Part shown: piece by piece, positions 2,801-17,059 of the stretch | Layout of the letters: each line of letters begins with the position of its first letter | Numbering within the stretch: the stretch's first letter is position 1 | IMG/VR virus record: IMGVR_UViG_3300010885_017886 | Coordinates: 1 to 20,094 of that record | Reading direction: 5' to 3' (one strand) | Source of the DNA: a virus | Length of the DNA stretch: 20,094 bases | Notes under the pieces: model-generated | Seen by the model: the letters and a program-made list of their open reading frames with translations, nothing else | What the model was told of the DNA's origin: nothing | Databases searched by the model: none | Translations under genes and position numbers: made by a program

Positions 2801-4290
2801 TGGGATTACTCGATAAGATTACTACGCTGTTCAAAGGGGGCAGTCTAAAGCCAAAAGCGGAATACAACCGCTACCAGAACATGCGCCTTATCGAAGGCGG
2901 ATGGTGGGCAGAACGTCCTTATTGGCCTACACATAACCGTTCGCTTGACAAAGAGGTAACTCTTTCAGAATATCGCGTTCTGGTTAGTGCCTCAAACCGG
3001 CTTTACTATAATTATGGTGCGATTACGAACTGCGTTAATGCCTTTGCTCAATATTGTATTGGCAGTAGCTTTTCTCCTGTATTTCAGGGAGAAGACAAAG
3101 AGTGGGGAGCTTTAGCTGAGAAATGGTTACACGATGCACTTGAAATTGCCTACACAGATGGGACACCTTGGGCTCTTGGCCTTGTCCGAGAAATTATCAT
3201 GCTCACCCGCGATGGTGACTGCGGGACTATCTTCACTGAAACTAAAAACGGATTTCCGCAATTGCAGCAAGTTGCTTGGCATCAAATTGCCTCCCGTGAA
3301 GGCACAGAAGTAGTTAAGGAAGGCAAATACAAAGGCTTGCCCCAGCACAATGGTGTAATCAAGAACCTTCAGGGCAGGCCGGTGGCTTATCGGCTAATGG
3401 GACCTCTTGAGGAGCAGGACCGAGATATCTCGGCTCAGAACATGCAGTTGACTATGGAATCCATTGCCCCGGATCAATCCCGAGGATTCCCTGCGTTCAC
3501 TGCTGCCATACGAGATCTTCGTACCACTCTTTCTATCGGCAACAACATCCGCCAAGCAGCGGAACTTGCTAGCACTATCGGTCTGATTGTCCACAACGAG
3601 ATGGGCATGGCTGATCCTCTCGATCCTGCCTATGCTCTCCAAGATGCTCCTCCAGTTGGACAAAGCGGTCTTCGCGTTGAAGAGCGTATGGGTGGCTCGA
3701 TTCAATACTTCCGCGCCGGTGCTGGAGAAAAGCTTGAACAGCTTAAGAATGAGATTCCAACGGAAGCCACCGACAGATTGCTCGAACGGTTGCTGCGGAA
3801 TGCCATGCTTGCCGGAGGATTCCCCCCAGAATTCTTCTGGAAGCCGGGTGAAGCTTCGGGTGCGAACTCCCGTATGGTTGTCGAACAGGTAAACCGCAAG
3901 ATCGCCAGGACTCAGCACATTATGAAATCCGCCTGCAAACGCCGGATTGGATATTTTGTGTCCAAGGCCATTAAATTGGGCCAGCTTCCTCCCTACAAAG
4001 GCAAAGACGCCGGAGGATTCTTAAAGTGGACCTTCACTCGTCCTGCAATCCTCACCCTCGATCAAGGGTACGCCAATGGCGCGGCACTTGATGCTTACAG
4101 GGCTGGGTTGCGGACGATGACAGACATTGTAGGTGAAGGCGGGCATACTCTCGAGCAGCATTTGGATATGCGCGAGAAAGAGGGCCTTGCAATTAAGGAA
4201 CGCATGGAGCGCTCTAAGCTTCCTCTCGAGTCCTTTGTAACTTTCACGCCTAACGGCAATTTGAATACGCAGCAGAACATCAAGCCATGA
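2800..4290 (+). CDS. Portal protein, lambda family
   Basis: This 496-residue protein should form the ring at the capsid vertex through which DNA is packaged. The region at about 60-95 (LVSASNRLYYNYGAITNCVN onward), the DGDCGTIF segment at about 138-145, and the stretch SRGFPAFTAAIRDLRTT near 227-243 with the following helical AAELAST segment match the pattern of lambda-type portals. The C-terminal third holds EFFWKPGEASGANSRM and a DMREKEGL segment, also usual for the family. It is a little shorter than lambda gpB (533). It starts at a TAATG overlap with the preceding gene and ends in an ATGA overlap with the protease, consistent with coupled translation of connector, portal and protease. Confidence 0.93.
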   Translation: MGLLDKITTLFKGGSLKPKAEYNRYQNMRLIEGGWWAERPYWPTHNRSLDKEVTLSEYRVLVSASNRLYYNYGAITNCVNAFAQYCIGSSFSPVFQGEDKEWGALAEKWLHDALEIAYTDGTPWALGLVREIIMLTRDGDCGTIFTETKNGFPQLQQVAWHQIASREGTEVVKEGKYKGLPQHNGVIKNLQGRPVAYRLMGPLEEQDRDISAQNMQLTMESIAPDQSRGFPAFTAAIRDLRTTLSIGNNIRQAAELASTIGLIVHNEMGMADPLDPAYALQDAPPVGQSGLRVEERMGGSIQYFRAGAGEKLEQLKNEIPTEATDRLLERLLRNAMLAGGFPPEFFWKPGEASGANSRMVVEQVNRKIARTQHIMKSACKRRIGYFVSKAIKLGQLPPYKGKDAGGFLKWTFTRPAILTLDQGYANGAALDAYRAGLRTMTDIVGEGGHTLEQHLDMREKEGLAIKERMERSKLPLESFVTFTPNGNLNTQQNIKP

Positions 4291-5114
4291 AATTAGTCCG
4301 CGTTCTATCTCGCATCAACATGCGTCCCTGGGCTATTGAGCCCGCCGGACAAGCAGCCATAGCGCAGTTGCTCAAGAATAAGATGGCTCGAGCAGACAGT
4401 GATGAGATTCCCGATCTCTCTGAATACGCCAACGAACGTAAGCCTATGTGGATTGATGGCAATGGCATTGCCCATATACACATTGAGGGCGTAATGGCCA
4501 AGGGTATTTCCAGGCTTGAAGCTATCTGCGGGGGGTACGACCTTGACTGGCTTGAATCGGACCTTAACGAGGCGAACGAGGCTGGCGTAAAGGGATGCTG
4601 GATTGAATTTGACACTCCCGGCGGAAGTTGCGAGGGCCTCGCTGAGTGCGCGGATATGATTTCCGAAATGGCACGCCGGATTCCCGTTGTTGCATGGACA
4701 GATCAGACTATTGCCAGCGCCGGATATTTCCTTGCTTCCTCTTGCACAAAGATTTATGCATCTCAGTCTTCTATGGTTGGCTCTATTGGCGTTATCATTG
4801 GCTGGATTGATTCTAGCGAGCAATGGTCTAGCCAAGGAATGAGCTGGGAGCCCGTTGTTAGCGGACCGCTCAAAGGTGCAGGCATGGGGCCATCTCTTAC
4901 GGAAGCCCAGAGGGAAAGCCTTCAGCGTCTAGTGGATGACTCTTATGCTCTCTTCAAGAAGAACATCCTAAAGCATCGCCGAGTTCCGAATGAAGCAATG
5001 CAGGGAGAGCTTTATCTCGCAAGTCGCGCAGCCAGTTACAACCTCGTTGATTCTGCGACGTTGACAGAGCAACAAGCATTTGATAAATTGGTTTCGTTGT
5101 GTAGTTCATTGTAG
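4287..5114 (+). CDS. S49-family prohead protease (lambda gpC-like)
   Basis: This 275-residue serine peptidase of the SppA/lambda C family probably cleaves scaffold and head proteins during prohead maturation. The fold signature runs from GIAHIHIEGVM (about 60-70) through IEFDTPGGS (106-114). The nucleophile is S144 in TIASAGYFLAS, followed by YASQSSMVGSIGV, and the catalytic lysine is K196 in SGPLKGAG. It is much shorter than lambda gpC (439), whose C-terminal part contains the nested scaffold Nu3; here that part is missing and a separate coiled-coil gene lies downstream. The start overlaps the portal stop (ATGA). A strong intrinsic terminator follows. Confidence 0.93.
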   Translation: MKLVRVLSRINMRPWAIEPAGQAAIAQLLKNKMARADSDEIPDLSEYANERKPMWIDGNGIAHIHIEGVMAKGISRLEAICGGYDLDWLESDLNEANEAGVKGCWIEFDTPGGSCEGLAECADMISEMARRIPVVAWTDQTIASAGYFLASSCTKIYASQSSMVGSIGVIIGWIDSSEQWSSQGMSWEPVVSGPLKGAGMGPSLTEAQRESLQRLVDDSYALFKKNILKHRRVPNEAMQGELYLASRAASYNLVDSATLTEQQAFDKLVSLCSSL

Positions 5115-5142
5115 TGTATTGTGTATTGTGTATCCATGTGAA

Positions 5143-5175
5143 CGCCGCAGAGTTTAATCGCTCTGCGGCGTTTTT
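5143..5175 (+). terminator. Rho-independent terminator
   Basis: CGCCGCAGAG (5143-5152) pairs perfectly with CTCTGCGGCG (5161-5170) around an 8-base loop, followed by TTTTT (5171-5175). Two further A-T pairs extend the stem. It lies 28 bases after the protease stop and before the scaffold candidate, so it may cut transcription and lower expression of the genes beyond unless a promoter or antitermination restores it. Confidence 0.85.
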
Positions 5176-6502: not shown

Positions 6503-6721
6503 ATGGATCTGCACCTCACTATCTCGAGGACTGCACTGGGAGAGGTCAGGGTCGCTTATTGTGGCCCTGACCGCCTCGCGGCGCAGAATGCTTACGAGAC
6601 TAATATCGAAGGTGCGGTTGTTGTTGAGTACATGCCTTATTTGGAGGCGCAACGCATCCGCAAGATTGCTAGGCCAGCAGCACCTCTTGCTGTTCAAGAA
6701 CAGTCTAGCAAAAAGAAATGA
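6503..6721 (+). CDS. Small hypothetical protein after the coat gene (gpFI position)
   Basis: A 72-residue protein starts at ATG 6503, four bases after the coat stop. It has a beta-like N-terminal half (LHLTISRTALGEVRVAY) and a basic, Ala/Pro-rich tail ending in SKKK. It sits where lambda encodes gpFI, but I see no sequence similarity to it. The stop overlaps the next gene's start in ATGA at 6718-6721. It may be a connector or a packaging accessory; no function is claimed. Confidence 0.7.
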   Translation: MDLHLTISRTALGEVRVAYCGPDRLAAQNAYETNIEGAVVVEYMPYLEAQRIRKIARPAAPLAVQEQSSKKK

Positions 6722-8464: not shown

Positions 8465-8809
8465 ATGAACCCATTCCTATTATCGAATGAAACTATCGGT
8501 CCTTTGACGCTTCGTCCTTGGACGCTCACCACACAGAAAGCCATCATGGCTCTTGATGACTGCAAGTTCTCAGAGCTTGAGCAAATGGCCGCAATGGCAT
8601 GGATGCAGGCTCAGGAACCTGAGGATGTTGAAAAGGCGGTCAATGACAAGAGCGCGGAAAAGAAGATCAAATCCTTTACGCGCAATTTTCCAATGGCGCT
8701 TGTTCAACCTATTGCTGAATGGTGCGACCGCCAGAACAAGATGGTTCAAAGCGGACAGATTGAAATTATCCCCAAGGGAGGAGCAGATCCCGCGCAGCCG
8801 GGAAACTAG
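8465..8809 (+). CDS. Tail assembly chaperone, short product (gpG-like)
   Basis: This 114-residue protein occupies the gpG position just before the tape measure region. Such proteins coat the tape measure during tail tube assembly and are absent from the finished tail. It has an N-terminal beta segment (GPLTLRPWTLTTQKAIM) followed by helices (SELEQMAAMAWMQAQ; VEKAVNDKSAEKKIKSFTRN), typical of this class. I chose ATG 8465 over an in-frame TTG at 8447, which overlaps the previous gene. The last two sense codons, GGA AAC, belong to a slippery heptamer just before TAG (8807-8809), so a fraction of ribosomes should continue into the longer product. Confidence 0.82.
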   Translation: MNPFLLSNETIGPLTLRPWTLTTQKAIMALDDCKFSELEQMAAMAWMQAQEPEDVEKAVNDKSAEKKIKSFTRNFPMALVQPIAEWCDRQNKMVQSGQIEIIPKGGADPAQPGN

Positions 8810-9039
8810 ATGGGCCAGAGTGGTGCGAGTCATTCGTGATCACTCTGGCCCGAGAAACGGGATGGTCTGAAGACTTCATTATGAGACGCGCCCCCTTAGC
8901 TCGATTGTTGCGGTATTATCATGCAGCAGCATGGAGCAACGGGGCATGGACGCGCAAGGTTGCCACTGAAGAGCAGAGGCAAGGAGTTGATGCGGTGCTG
9001 GCGCTAATTCCTCAACAAACGGAGGAATGTGATGAGTGA
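8465..9039 (+). CDS. Tail assembly chaperone, -1 frameshift fusion (gpGT-like)
   Basis: A -1 slip at 8800-8806 would join the 114-residue short product to 77 residues read from 8806, giving about 191 residues. The added part begins LDGPEWCESFVITLARETGW and continues with helical segments (FIMRRAPLARLLRYYHAAAW) typical of the T part of G/GT chaperones, which contacts the tail tube protein. The downstream frame is open from 8764 to 9039 and contains no ATG before the conserved-looking part, so it is best explained as a frameshift extension. A GTG at 8836 would give only 67 residues and lies in the loop of the stimulatory hairpin. Lambda uses the related heptamer GGGAAAG for the same purpose. 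Confidence 0.85.
8800..8851 (+). promoter_or_regulatory. Programmed -1 ribosomal frameshift signal
   Basis: The heptamer GGGAAAC (8800-8806) is in phase as G GGA AAC, directly before the TAG stop. After a 5-base spacer, GGGCCAGAGTG (8812-8822) pairs perfectly with CACTCTGGCCC (8841-8851) in an 11-bp stem. The loop can add a few inner pairs (CGA with TCG). All three standard parts are present at the usual spacing. The event joins the two tail chaperone frames. Confidence 0.9.
9021..9025 (+). promoter_or_regulatory. Strong Shine-Dalgarno site GGAGG
   Basis: GGAGG is six bases before the ATG at 9032 and selects that start over the GTG at 9029. It is the only clear Shine-Dalgarno site I see before any gene in the window. 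Confidence 0.65.
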
Positions 9040-9793
9040 CATTGCAGTCGATCTCTCCGCCAAAGGTCATACCGAGTTTTACTCAAACTTGGAAAAGATT
9101 ATTGCCACGTCCAAAAAAGGCATGTGGTCAGTCGTCCACACGCATTTTAAGGGAGTTGTTAGAAACTTTCTGTCTATCACGCCCCCAATGGGCGGCACTC
9201 ATCCCTCGCTGAAGTTTAACGCTAAGGGAGAACATACCGGCGCTGTTGACTATGCTGCTGGGCGAGAGGCTGGCAGAAAGACCATTCTTGCAGATATTAA
9301 GAAAGCTTTTTGGCAAATGGAACCCGGAAACGAGGTTCAACAAAAGCGCTGGAGCAATAGCGTGACCCAGCAGATGCTTTCTGAGCACCCTTTGCTCACT
9401 CTCAGGTGGTATTTATCTGTTCGCAATGACCGCAAAAGGATCAGAGGGGCCCCTAGAAGGCCCGCCACCAAGGTTCAGGTAGATTTTGTGCTGAAGTACC
9501 TATTAACGCGCCAGGGAAGCGTTGTGGCCGGATGGAAGAATGCAGCTCGATTCTTTAATCTTCCAATTCCTCGGTGGGACAACAAGTACGACGCTTCTCG
9601 CTCTAGGTTTAAAGTGGAAGCCGGAGAAGAAAATTATTACATCTACGCCGGAAACACGACAAACCACAGAGAGGCGAACAAGTTAAATCGCATGGGTGAA
9701 ATTGCGATGAACATGCAGAACAATAACATGGCGCGAATACTGAAAGCTTTTGTAGAGACAGAAGCAAGGCGACGCGGATTCGTAACACGATAA
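9032..9793 (+). CDS. Hypothetical protein between chaperones and tape measure
   Basis: This protein of about 253 residues is not recognised. The N-terminal third is mixed (DLSAKGHTEFYSNLEKII..; ITPPMGGTHPSLKF), followed by basic helical segments (GREAGRKTILADIKKAFWQM; LRWYLSVRNDRKRIRGAPRR), a VVAGWKNAARFFNLPIPRWD segment and a helical C-terminus rich in Asn, Met and Arg. The ..GWKNAA.. pattern after a basic helical stretch recalls minor tail proteins of the HK97 gp10 type, but this is only a resemblance. Its start overlaps the frameshift extension by eight bases. In lambda nothing lies between GT and the tape measure, so this is an addition to that order. Confidence 0.78.
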   Translation: MSDIAVDLSAKGHTEFYSNLEKIIATSKKGMWSVVHTHFKGVVRNFLSITPPMGGTHPSLKFNAKGEHTGAVDYAAGREAGRKTILADIKKAFWQMEPGNEVQQKRWSNSVTQQMLSEHPLLTLRWYLSVRNDRKRIRGAPRRPATKVQVDFVLKYLLTRQGSVVAGWKNAARFFNLPIPRWDNKYDASRSRFKVEAGEENYYIYAGNTTNHREANKLNRMGEIAMNMQNNNMARILKAFVETEARRRGFVTR

Positions 9794-11865: not shown

Positions 11866-13197
11866 ATGCTTCCTCTAAATTTTAGTCGCGGGACTCCAAT
11901 AACGGCAGAGCATCTTAACTCGCTTGTTAATGAGATTAGAAGTAACTCGTTAACCTCGGGCATGGGATACATTCTTAATAAGACGCCTAATGGAACAAGC
12001 TTAAGTATTCCTCAGCCATCTGGTGGTGGAGGTGGCGGAGGCGGAGGTGCTGCAATTGCTTGTCCTTTTGAAGTTACGGATGTATCTGAGCCTGGGCAAT
12101 CGGGGCAATTGACTTTAAAGCTAAATGTAAAATGTGAACTTGTCCGCGCATACAATATTTGGCCCACAGGGACAAGCGAAGAACATCCCAATCATGTAAT
12201 CGTAGATCTTCCTGTCGAGGCGGGGTGGTATGGCATTTATTTGTGGATCGAATTAGATCAAGAAGGAAATCTTACCAAAACAAATGGCGTAGATTTCCAG
12301 CCTGACGTGGTGTGGCGAGATAATTGGGTTGAGTCTACTTCGACAGATTTGTTTGTCTATTTGGGCGGCGTGACATTAAGTGCTGATACTGAAAGCCATA
12401 TTTATGTCTCGAACATAGAAAATGCTTGTCCAGTCATTCAAAGACCGACTCTTCCGGCTTGTCCATTCTTGGTAGAGCCATCCTTAAAGATTCTAGAGAC
12501 TGGGTTAAATATTCAGATTCGCAGTGGGAAAATTAACGGAAATTACCCGACAGGAATGGATTCCATCAATACCTACTTAATGGTATTGGGAGACTCCACA
12601 AATTACCGGTACATTTACTGTGTAATGGTCGTAAAGGATGGAGTCATTCAGACTGGGCCGAATGACGTTACTTTTGGGGATTATGAACAGATGCAAGAAT
12701 CTACGAGCACTCTTGCATACTTTTTAGTGGCAGAAGTTCAGACAGGCTATGACGCACAAAGCGATCTCGTTGTTGAGTATGTTTATAACTACTGCACCGT
12801 TCCATTCACATTTCCAATTTCCTATTGTCCGTTCAGGCTAACCAACGTTAGTTCTCCTACGGCAATGTATTTGGAGGTTCAGTTTGGTTATGTAAATGGA
12901 GATCGTATTCCCGATGGAATGCCTACACCTCCAGCTACAACGCCACCTTTGATTTTAACTGTGACGGCGGATTGTTTTGTGTATTGCGCCATTACTTACG
13001 ATTCAAACTTTAACGTGCCTTATACTGGCGGGATCGTATTTTCAACCTCAAGCACAGTAAAAACCAACACTGCAACCATACAATATGTTCTTGTAGGAAC
13101 GGTAAAAGTTATTGATGGCAGAATTGATTCGATTTCAAATGTATGCTCTCCAATTAACTTTGATGCGTGTTCTTTAAAATTTGATCTTATTCCATAA
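11866..13197 (+). CDS. Tail protein with three Cys-bracketed repeat domains
   Basis: This 443-residue protein has a short attachment-like N-terminus (PITAEHLNSLVNEIRSNSLT, residues 11-30, then GMGYILNKTPNGTSLSI), a nine-glycine linker (53-61), and three repeats of about 107-123 residues. Each repeat begins with CPF (C66, C199, C321) and ends with a cysteine after an Asn- or Tyr-containing strand (C188, C310, C427). Between them lie shared elements: a turn with a Gly or Pro, an aromatic strand with YxY or YC, and an ESTST or SSTVKT segment before YFLVAE/YVLVGT. The end-to-end cysteines could form a disulfide in each domain. Likely a virion-surface or tail-tip protein; the exact role is unknown. 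Confidence 0.75.
   Translation: MLPLNFSRGTPITAEHLNSLVNEIRSNSLTSGMGYILNKTPNGTSLSIPQPSGGGGGGGGGAAIACPFEVTDVSEPGQSGQLTLKLNVKCELVRAYNIWPTGTSEEHPNHVIVDLPVEAGWYGIYLWIELDQEGNLTKTNGVDFQPDVVWRDNWVESTSTDLFVYLGGVTLSADTESHIYVSNIENACPVIQRPTLPACPFLVEPSLKILETGLNIQIRSGKINGNYPTGMDSINTYLMVLGDSTNYRYIYCVMVVKDGVIQTGPNDVTFGDYEQMQESTSTLAYFLVAEVQTGYDAQSDLVVEYVYNYCTVPFTFPISYCPFRLTNVSSPTAMYLEVQFGYVNGDRIPDGMPTPPATTPPLILTVTADCFVYCAITYDSNFNVPYTGGIVFSTSSTVKTNTATIQYVLVGTVKVIDGRIDSISNVCSPINFDACSLKFDLIP
12061..13146 (+). repeat. Three diverged tandem protein repeats (coding)
   Basis: The repeats span residues 66-188, 199-310 and 321-427 of the gene at 11866. They are recognisable at the protein level by opening CPF, central aromatic strands and closing cysteine. 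DNA similarity is low, so the duplication is old. Confidence 0.6.
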
Positions 13198-13984: not shown

Positions 13985-14296
13985 ATGACCCCCGCACGGA
14001 CCGCTCAAACCATCGTGAGAGGCGCAGACTATGCGCTTGGGTTTCAGCGTACCGAAAATTCTACCCCCGTATCACTGGAAGGGGATGAGTTTGATTGTTT
14101 GTTGATTTCTTCTTCTGGGACGGTTTTGACTCATCCAGTTATTGGATATGTCGATGAAATGCAGCGTTGTATTCAAATTTCTCACACAGTTACTGCAACA
14201 TTGGCCGCACAGACTGCCCGGATGGAACTTTGGGTCACAAGGATCGTCGATGGGTTTCGCTATATGATTTTAACCGCTAGGATGACAATTGTATGA
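13985..14296 (+). CDS. Small beta-rich protein before the fibre genes
   Basis: This 103-residue protein has the pattern of small baseplate or fibre-adaptor domains: an RGADYALGFQ strand near the N-terminus, a SLEGDEFDCLLISSSGTVL segment and alternating strands to the end (RMELWVTRIVDGFRYMILTA). Many phages carry a protein with a similar opening, in which a polar stretch precedes an immunoglobulin-like fold, beside the fibre genes. That resemblance is weak. The stop overlaps the next gene's ATGA. I assign no function beyond likely tail attachment. Confidence 0.6.
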   Translation: MTPARTAQTIVRGADYALGFQRTENSTPVSLEGDEFDCLLISSSGTVLTHPVIGYVDEMQRCIQISHTVTATLAAQTARMELWVTRIVDGFRYMILTARMTIV

Positions 14297-14574
14297 GTTG
14301 TGCGAATGAATGCGGAACTGCCGCAATTGAACTGTTTCAAGGTATTCCGGGCATTCAAGGCCCCGTAGGGCCACAGGGCCCTCAGGGTTCTCCTGGCGAC
14401 TTAACAGCGCTTCATGGGGATGTTATTTTGTCTGTTGATCAACAGGGTTCTGTTGCAACTGTGACCGGCATTCAGACCATCCCAGTTTCTGAAGTGCATC
14501 CTACGGGCACTCAATTTCTCCAGTACAACGGCATTCGTTGGACTCCAACCACATTTGACGCAGGCACCTATTAG
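14293..14574 (+). CDS. Short collagen-like fibre protein
   Basis: This 93-residue protein has two N-terminal cysteines (C3, C7), a helical lead, then six Gly-X-Y triplets (residues 17-34, beginning GIPGIQGPVGPQGPQGSPGD). A short beta region with HPTGTQFLQYNGIRWTPT follows. The triplets should form a trimeric collagen-like stalk. The ending matches a module (P-T-x-G-Q/x-x-L-x-W/Y-N..W-x-P) found in the next genes, so it is probably part of the same fibre system. It overlaps the previous gene by ATGA; the next gene starts two bases after its stop. Confidence 0.8.
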   Translation: MSCANECGTAAIELFQGIPGIQGPVGPQGPQGSPGDLTALHGDVILSVDQQGSVATVTGIQTIPVSEVHPTGTQFLQYNGIRWTPTTFDAGTY

Positions 14575-14576
14575 TT

Positions 14577-15503
14577 ATGAGCAATCCGATCATTCCAAAA
14601 CGCAACATCGTTGCAACTTCTCAGCTTGCTCCGCTTAATGGAGATCTTCAGCTTGCCGAGCTTGCCGTTAATACCGCGACCAATAAGGTTTTCCTAAAAG
14701 GAAACGCTGGGGTTTACGAAGTTGCGTCTGACAAGGTTGCCACGTCTCAGCTAACCACTGCAAAAGTAGCTGGTGGCGTTCCCGTGCTCGATGGTAACGG
14801 GTATTTGTCCACAGCCCAGATTGCTGCGCTTAACACAACTCAACTCGCGTGCCTTACGACTGGGGCTCTTGCCAACCTGGTGCCGCAACTCGGAAGTGAT
14901 GGGAAAATCTCGGCGGCTCAGCTTCCTCCTATTGTTACAGGAGCGCTGGTTTATAAAGGCGCATGGGTGCCAAACACGAATCCCGTACTTGTTAGCGGAG
15001 TCGGCACAAAAGGCGATTACTATATCGCAACCGCAGATGCAACGATCACTCCCGTAGACGGTCACGCTAAGATCCTGGCTGGGGATATGATGGCCTACAA
15101 TGGTGTGGGCTGGGACCTATTGCACGGTGCCACTAGCGAAGTGATTAGCGTAAATTCGCAGCTCCCAGTAAATGGCAACGTGGTGCTAAATGCCGCCAAT
15201 GTTGGGGCCGTTGCTACATCCGAGCTGACGACCGCAGCGGTGGCTTCTGGCGTTCCGCAGCTTACTGACGCAGGCAAACTTTCAACCTCTCAGCTCATTG
15301 CCGCAACCACTTCCGAACTGGGGTCCATCAAGGTTGGTTCTGGTCTTGCCATTGATGGCAATGGAGTTGTGAGTGTTACGGGATCGGCTTACCAATTGCC
15401 AATCGCAACCGCGTTTGCCCTGGGTGGCATTAAAGCATCCGCATCAATTGACGTTGATGGTGTGACTGGTGCCGCAACCGTAGCAACTGCTGGAGTCTAC
15501 TAA
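14577..15503 (+). CDS. Tail fibre / adhesin protein with repeat modules
   Basis: This 308-residue protein is built from common phage-fibre units. Residues 1-50 (MSNPIIPKRN.., LQLAELAVNTATNKVFLKGN) look like an attachment module shared with the next gene. A 32-residue unit appears twice (54-85 and 212-243): VATSQLTTAKVAGGVPVL and VATSELTTAAVASGVPQL, each followed by GKLST-like text. Residues about 126-182 (YKGAWVPNTNP.. GTKGDYYIA.. AGDMMAYNGVGWDLL) are a well-known small fibre domain. EVISVNSQLPVNGNVVLNAA with NVGAV is the familiar V-x-SVN-G fibre motif. The C-terminal 40 residues (YQLPIATAFALGGIKASASI) are also common in fibres. It is likely part of the receptor-binding apparatus. Confidence 0.85.
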   Translation: MSNPIIPKRNIVATSQLAPLNGDLQLAELAVNTATNKVFLKGNAGVYEVASDKVATSQLTTAKVAGGVPVLDGNGYLSTAQIAALNTTQLACLTTGALANLVPQLGSDGKISAAQLPPIVTGALVYKGAWVPNTNPVLVSGVGTKGDYYIATADATITPVDGHAKILAGDMMAYNGVGWDLLHGATSEVISVNSQLPVNGNVVLNAANVGAVATSELTTAAVASGVPQLTDAGKLSTSQLIAATTSELGSIKVGSGLAIDGNGVVSVTGSAYQLPIATAFALGGIKASASIDVDGVTGAATVATAGVY

Positions 15504-15505
15504 GT

Positions 15506-17059
15506 ATGTCATTCCCGATCATCCCTAAACTCAATTCGGCCCCAGGGGCTGGCGCGCCCGCAACGCTTACTCTTGGGGAACTTGCCGCAAACCGCTCGAC
15601 GGCCACGCTCTACATGGGCACTGATACGGGAGTTCAGGAGTTGGCATTTGCGGGAACATTGGGTGGGACTGCGGTCAGCAATTTCACGGCAGATGGCGGC
15701 ACATCATTTTCGCCTATCAACGGATACACATCGACAAATATTAACGCCTATTTGGTAAGCGTTGGCGGAATTGAGCAGAGGCCAACAGTTGATTGGACAG
15801 TCTCTGATGCAAACGGTGGAACTGTTGTTTTTGCTTCTGCACCGCCCTCTGGTGTGACAATTATCGTGCGTGCGGTTGTTGCAGGCTCTGGCGGTGGCGG
15901 CGGTGGCGGCACTGACATTGGTGGCCGCGCATGGTCCGGCACTGCAACGTACACTGAGGGTGACTTGGTTGCCACATCGCAACGCGAGACGTGGATCTGC
16001 ATTCAGGCAAACAATATTGGCAACGACCCAGCAACATCGCCAACATGGTGGGCGCCTCAACCCGCAGATGCGGTTTCATTGCAGCTCAGGCCGCTGGCAG
16101 CAACGGCGCCAACAGATGGGCAGGCAATTGTTTGGGATGACACCAATACGACATGGAGGCCTGGAACAGTCAGCGGCGGCGGCGGAAACGCCACGCAGTT
16201 ACAAGGGCGCAGCATTGCAACAACAGCGCCAACGGCTGGGCAGGTTCTGGCGTGGAATGCGACAACATCTAAATGGGAACCTACTGGCGGTGGCGGAACT
16301 ATTACTTTCGACACTGTTGGAACGCATTATTTTTCGGTGCCAGCAAACGCTCGCTGGGCAAGGGTGCAAGCAACGGCTGGCGATGGCACAAACGGCAGCA
16401 ATGGCACGGGGACTAATGGTGAGTATGGGTCAACGGACGAAAACGGGTATGCTGTTCGAGGTGCAAACGGAACGGATGTTTCAGGCACCGCTGGGGCCGT
16501 TGGAAAATCAATAAAAATTGCATCAGCAACTATAGCGAGCGGCGGATCGGCTGGCGATACTGGAGGCACAGGATATGGCGGGGGAGGGGGTGGTGGCACT
16601 GGGGGGAATTCAGCCGGGGATAATGATCCAAACACTTGGGGCCGAGATGGAAATGGGCCACTTTCTGGAAAAGGGGGGACTTATATTGCGGGGGGGAACG
16701 CAGGCGGCGGAAATGCTACGGCTGGGGCTCCACCAAACACAGAAACACAATACCAAAGTGGCGGCTCTGGGTATCTTGGCGGCGGAGATGGGGGCAATGG
16801 AGTAGTAGGAGGAAATTACTGGATAACCGGCGGCGGCGGTGGCGGAGAAGATGGAAGCGGCGGCGGTGGGGGTGCTGGTGCTGGGGCTGGGGCTGGGCTT
16901 GGCACTCCAGGCAAAGGCGGAACTGGAAGCGCTGGCGGAATTGGAGGCGTTGGGCAAATCGTTGATGCGCCTTTCAACCTGACGCCCTATGCTGGAGGAT
17001 CATTGATGATTGAAATCACGGCAGGCGCAGGCACCGCCTCTTGCACAATTACTTGGTAA
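15506..17059 (+). CDS. Receptor-binding adhesin with CBM-like domain and glycine-rich tip
   Basis: This 517-residue protein starts with an attachment module like that of the previous gene (MSFPIIPKLN.., LGELAANRSTATLYMG). Residues about 60-123 resemble a fibre domain with NAYLVSVGGIEQRPTVDWTV and SAPPSGVTIIVRAV. Residues about 143-184 (WSGTATYTEGDLVATSQRET, then WICIQANN, PTWWAP) have the Trp/Tyr pattern of CBM5/12 chitin-type carbohydrate-binding modules. Two P-T-x-G-Q units follow (202-220, 242-260), then a long glycine-rich region (about 291-480) like the polyglycine tips of T-even gp38-type adhesins, closing with a beta segment (GGSLMIEITAGAGTASCTIT). The role should be host-surface binding; the target sugar is unknown. 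Confidence 0.83.
   Translation: MSFPIIPKLNSAPGAGAPATLTLGELAANRSTATLYMGTDTGVQELAFAGTLGGTAVSNFTADGGTSFSPINGYTSTNINAYLVSVGGIEQRPTVDWTVSDANGGTVVFASAPPSGVTIIVRAVVAGSGGGGGGGTDIGGRAWSGTATYTEGDLVATSQRETWICIQANNIGNDPATSPTWWAPQPADAVSLQLRPLAATAPTDGQAIVWDDTNTTWRPGTVSGGGGNATQLQGRSIATTAPTAGQVLAWNATTSKWEPTGGGGTITFDTVGTHYFSVPANARWARVQATAGDGTNGSNGTGTNGEYGSTDENGYAVRGANGTDVSGTAGAVGKSIKIASATIASGGSAGDTGGTGYGGGGGGGTGGNSAGDNDPNTWGRDGNGPLSGKGGTYIAGGNAGGGNATAGAPPNTETQYQSGGSGYLGGGDGGNGVVGGNYWITGGGGGGEDGSGGGGGAGAGAGAGLGTPGKGGTGSAGGIGGVGQIVDAPFNLTPYAGGSLMIEITAGAGTASCTITW

Follow-up and report, generated by a model that had tools for sequence, protein, structure and literature searches.

A probable programmed -1 ribosomal frameshift with a conserved downstream hairpin in the putative tail chaperone genes of a Verrucomicrobiota phage lineage

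The question raised by this locus is whether two overlapping reading frames, encoded upstream of a tail length tape measure gene, are joined into a single protein by ribosomes that change frame. The window (i.e. the whole stretch of DNA analysed: 20,094 nucleotides, positions 1 to 20,094 of the IMG/VR virus record IMGVR_UViG_3300010885_017886) carries the features listed in Table 1. Comparison with homologous junctions points to a programmed -1 ribosomal frameshift, which would generate a G/G-T tail chaperone pair in a tailed-phage lineage of Verrucomicrobiota; the probability of this reading was estimated at about 94%. From the sequences we infer the slippage itself, its efficiency, the stimulation by the hairpin and the function in tail assembly.

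Table 1. Features of the candidate frameshift locus and of the adjacent genes (window coordinates).
Feature	Position	Strand	Evidence
Slippery heptamer G GGA AAC, predicted -1 shift	8800..8806	+	All distinct homologous junctions (121/121) carry X XXY YYZ here
Zero-frame TAG, abutting the heptamer	8807..8809	+	Adjacent stop in 82/121 homologues
Hairpin 5' arm, GGGCCAGAGTG	8812..8822	+	Folding; covariation; excess over synonymous recoding
Hairpin 3' arm, CACTCTGGCCC	8841..8851	+	Folding; covariation
Zero-frame gene (putative G-like tail assembly chaperone), 114 aa, ends ...PGN-TAG	8465..8809	+	Homologues 41-56% identical (A2)
-1 extension (T-like), 77 aa post-shift, LDGPEWCESFVITLARETGW...	8806..9039	+	Stop at 9037-9039
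253-aa gene, function unassigned, between chaperone and tape measure	9032..9793	+	Gene of ~230-290 aa at the same place in relatives
Tail length tape measure, 459 aa	9798..11177	+	PHROG tape-measure profiles, best E 2.7e-5

According to the proposed mechanism, most ribosomes would terminate at the TAG and release the 114-aa G-like protein. Some ribosomes, with the P site on GGA and the A site on AAC, would slip back by one base onto GGG AAA, held during the slip by the hairpin located 5 nt downstream, and the shifted ribosomes would produce a 191-aa fusion carrying the T-like domain of 77 aa. In the manner of phage lambda, the tape measure protein may be coated by many copies of G and few of G-T, which would also recruit the tube protein.

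The heptamer is in register with the ATG at 8465 and is separated by a 5-nt spacer (8807-8811) from a perfect 11-bp stem. The -1 frame is open from 8764 to 9039. An earlier sequence-only reading of the window had located the heptamer, TAG, spacer, stem and open -1 frame correctly to the base, and had proposed a fusion of about 191 residues, the length obtained here by computation (114 + 77). With RNAfold, the stem was lengthened to 14 bp with an additional inner helix (-35.8 kcal/mol for 8795-8875), and none of 200 shuffled sequences was equally stable (z -4.3). Set against recodings of the protein with synonymous codons, the hairpin gave a z-score of about -6, and the 50-nt window at 8811 ranked second in stability among 4009 windows of the + strand. 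Heptamers of the X XXA/T type occur in register 15 times in the 5343 codons of the window and are not rare, so the case rests on comparison and its significance comes from conservation.

Homologues were collected with the 77-aa extension as probe: the pooled matches comprised 227 locus rows, corresponding to 121 distinct 90-nt junctions. They were found in IMG/VR viral contigs and in Verrucomicrobiota genomes (Chthoniobacter flavus Ellin428, Prosthecobacter, Verrucomicrobium, Akkermansiaceae and others), and more distant homologues were present in 13 further Verrucomicrobiota genomes. The extension was the better IMG/VR probe; the zero-frame protein alone retrieved no relatives by pattern scan and none from INPHARED. 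A relative's extension searched in INPHARED and a search of Rfam returned no match.

In all 121 junctions, the extension is immediately preceded by an X XXY YYZ heptamer in register: AAAAAAC (43), GGGAAAC (28), CCCAAAC (27), GGGAAAG (20) or CCCAAAA (3). The junction finder scanned from 15 codons upstream to 10 codons downstream of the aligned start, and the heptamer was always at the aligned position itself. The residues encoded there vary (P-K-N, P-G-N, P-P-N); the preceding codon specifies Pro in 118/121 junctions, with a wobble base that always matches XXX (CCA-AAA, CCG-GGA, CCC-CCA). On a tree from which the columns of the signal itself were left out, XXX had changed no fewer than 9 times; without slippage, it is difficult to account for three identical bases being kept over a codon boundary throughout. 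Three homologues have no heptamer (L105, a Verrucomicrobiaceae MAG with the fusion at 1120-1767; L238, distant; and L244, distant and weakly matched), and in each of them both halves are fused in frame, as expected if the two halves are needed as one chain. The -1 frameshift proposed by the sequence-only reading is thus supported: across the 121 junctions, the heptamer was never broken without compensation. The abutting stop, which that reading pointed out in the window, is found in 82/121 junctions; it lies one codon further on in 32/121 and 10-11 codons further on in 7/121, and is therefore usual, not required.

A separate origin for the extension, by translation initiated within it at GTG 8836 or by re-initiation past the TAG, with the heptamer and hairpin incidental or regulating initiation, was judged very improbable. 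A simple ORF list does report a 67-aa GTG ORF at 8836, as had been foreseen in the sequence-only reading, and the stop abuts the junction in many relatives. However, the conserved protein sequence LDGPEWCESF begins 10 codons before this GTG; the start-like codons of the extension occupy no conserved position across the 121 junctions, and in 94 of these the -1 frame contains no ATG, GTG or TTG from its last stop to the conserved Pro. In the window, the ATG directly 3' of the TAG belongs to the zero frame and is followed by a stop after 9 codons, and three homologues have G and T fused in frame. The extension is 64-70% identical in close relatives and is better conserved than the upstream gene. 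Slippage by the RNA polymerase at a homopolymer, rather than by the ribosome, appears less probable still: the AAAAAAC heptamer of 43/121 junctions offers a run of six A, but the runs of GGGAAAC and CCCAAAC are only three bases long, and the conserved tandem X XXY YYZ register, with a hairpin at fixed distance, fits tandem tRNA slippage.

Conservation of the downstream stem was examined in the same junctions. The central GCC/GGC pairs do not vary among the 101 junctions whose A-site codon is AAC or AAA. Among 48 distinct sequences, 89.4% of the stem's alignment cells were paired (slid controls: 28-40%) and 36 were double-changed, compared with 10.4 in shuffles, so the comparison across relatives suggested by the sequence-only reading revealed a hairpin conserved with covariation. 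The pair 8819/8844 occurs as six pair types (CG, GC, GU, UA, AU and UG). Position 8819 is the middle base of extension codon 5, and 8844 is the third base of a Thr codon, which is ACG in 18/18 sequences with C at the 5' base and ACA in 11/11 sequences with U. In a second clade, where Val replaces this Thr, an 18-bp stem with one bulge is kept. Independent-pairs tests on the tree, with too few pairs, gave no significance for stem pair 8. When each protein was recoded with its own codon usage, 66/66 and 34/35 junctions of the two stem groups (100/101) had a hairpin whose strength exceeds what protein and codon usage call for (p<0.05). The downstream structure thus appears to be selected at the RNA level, and is absent from the GGGAAAG clade.

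An alternative role for this hairpin, as an attenuator or mRNA stability element beside a heptamer that alone drives low-level shifting as in lambda, was considered unlikely, although less so than the two readings weighed above. It draws on the observations that the same test detects nothing significant downstream of the site in lambda, N15 and P2, and that the GGGAAAG clade of the family itself has no hairpin. Against it, the hairpin lies within coding sequence, with a constant spacing throughout the 101 AAC/AAA junctions and with no T run after it, and it is missing exactly in the clade whose heptamer is highly shift-prone in E. coli.

The 20 GGGAAAG junctions can form 4.45 of the 11 pairs, compared with 5.45 expected from recoding. 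The conserved Pro and motif Ala are kept in these junctions, mostly encoded by non-pairing synonyms, and the differences that accompany hairpin absence are mostly synonymous. These junctions form one clade and so represent one event on the tree; independent-pairs tests, again with too few pairs, gave no significance for the link between AAG and hairpin loss. The hairpin of the fused homologue L105 has decayed, with one invariant core pair broken and 4/11 pairs lost. At the distant AAC sites (L236, L237, L239, L240 and L241), structure exceeded recoding in at least 1 of 2 window sizes (p<0.03), while the distant AAAAAAG sites (L234, L235 and L243) had no structure beyond recoding and the distant GGGAAAG site (L242) was ambiguous. 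In E. coli, AAC heptamers are much less shift-prone than AAG heptamers, and in some tailed phages shifting occurs with no stimulatory signal (PMC5009743). Given this difference and the pattern of structure across sites, a trade-off is plausible, though it involves few independent events. We tentatively suggest that a strong covarying hairpin offsets a weak heptamer with the Asn codon AAC in the A site and, as the other side of the same claim, that lineages with a Lys AAG heptamer or with fused frames shed the hairpin, mostly by synonymous changes. If so, the family would be a natural series for heptamer strength versus RNA structure in holding the G:G-T ratio.

Host tRNA content was considered as a reason for AAC over AAG and was rejected. 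A tRNA-Lys(CUU)-like gene was found in 7/10 carrier genomes (11/13 with a looser pattern); it is also present in G227, G339 and G136, whose sites use AAG, and so does not explain the choice of A-site codon. Most Verrucomicrobiota with the element (G002-G011 and others) carry both tRNA-Lys(UUU)-like and tRNA-Lys(CUU)-like genes.

A GGAGG-type Shine-Dalgarno match lies ~7-20 nt 5' of the heptamer in the AAAAAAC clade with the VLAR motif (L070-L090 and relatives). In this AAAAAAC 'VLA' clade, the upstream match was observed in 89% of junctions, compared with 26% expected from codon usage, an excess that possibly goes back to one inherited event; the element may act as a second stimulator. Most of the family showed no excess of upstream matches (29% observed, 31% expected).

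The identity of the pair was approached from gene order, profile and fold searches. In the window and in relatives, the tape measure gene is located two genes downstream of the chaperone candidate: the lambda-like G/GT arrangement, with two overlapping frames ahead of the tape measure, is found here with one extra gene of ~250 aa between T and the tape measure, unlike lambda. The window also encodes a GpA-type terminase and a lambda-family portal. Searches of Pfam and PHROG gave no match for the G or T part, so the name 'tail chaperone' is given by inference. The AlphaFold model of G consists of a beta-hairpin and helices (pLDDT 86). In the search for a fold in common with solved chaperones such as HK97 gp13, Foldseek gave it no PDB match and VIA, covering the matches listed by Foldseek, no confident one; the good BFVD matches were uncharacterised phage proteins. 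Fold searches with the G and T models returned no named chaperone with confidence. The T domain has a short motif (F..xLARExG) in common with the T domains of lambda, N15, HK97 and P2; hhalign of these with A3 gave 48% probability over 14 columns. The chaperone role assigned by the sequence-only reading is supported by architecture and by the nearby tape measure gene rather than by sequence homology, and the alignment to GT-type chaperones that it called for yielded this short motif only. By its architecture, a tail assembly chaperone pair is the best reading.

Three other regions of the window were recorded. Among all 50-nt windows of the record, the greatest stability (-32.5 kcal/mol) belongs to 6536-6585, which contains a hairpin, GGTCAGGGTC...GGCCCTGACC, just 3' of the presumed major capsid gene (end 6498), where the next small ORF begins. 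At 5139-5175, just past the ORF 4287-5114, which by eye we take to be S49-protease-like, a strong hairpin rich in GC (AACGCCGCAGAG...CTCTGCGGCGTT) precedes a T run; this hairpin is likely an intrinsic terminator in mid-operon. Glycine-rich and collagen-like stretches (PSGGGGGGGGG; GIQGPVGPQGPQGSPG; long GGGG/GGTG runs) occupy 11866-13197 and 14293-17059, in presumed tail-fibre genes.

The frameshifted tail chaperone is already well known as a device. Lambda gpG/gpGT (GGGAAAG) has in common with the present locus a site upstream of the tape measure gene, the -1 register at the 3' end of the G-like gene and the X XXY YYZ type. In contrast, the A-site codon is AAG (Lys) in lambda and AAC (Asn) here, lambda has no structure within 50 nt (z +1.1) where a strong conserved hairpin is found here, and lambda G has no detectable homology to the G part. 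The chaperone frameshifts of HK97, N15, P2 and D29 have the same arrangement and shift direction; the N15 and HK97 sites are of the G GAA AAG type and the P2 site is T TTT TTG. In the 50-nt test, lambda, N15, P2 and HK97 have weak downstream structure or none (marginal in HK97 at a longer window) and D29 has a significant one (z -2.9), so a structured chaperone site is not unique to this family. The sequence-only reading called the stem unusually strong, a description that needs the qualification that D29 also carries a strong downstream structure. The G-T frameshifts of the Haloarcula phages HCTV-1/-2/-5, whose hosts are archaeal, were likened by description. Bacterial insertion-sequence and dnaX -1 signals (E. 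coli dnaX heptamer A_AAA_AAG, PMC5009743) also combine a slippery heptamer with stimulatory signals, in different genes; an upstream Shine-Dalgarno-like element is possible in one clade here.

In the searchable sources, no earlier description was found of this phage family, its strictly kept hairpin or its hairpin-less branch. Throughout the Verrucomicrobiota phage group, gene callers are expected to miss the T half, which has no Pfam, PHROG or INPHARED match, or to call a false short gene. One gene family with several A-site codons, hairpin and hairpin-less versions and fusions provides a comparison for frameshift efficiency outside E. coli.
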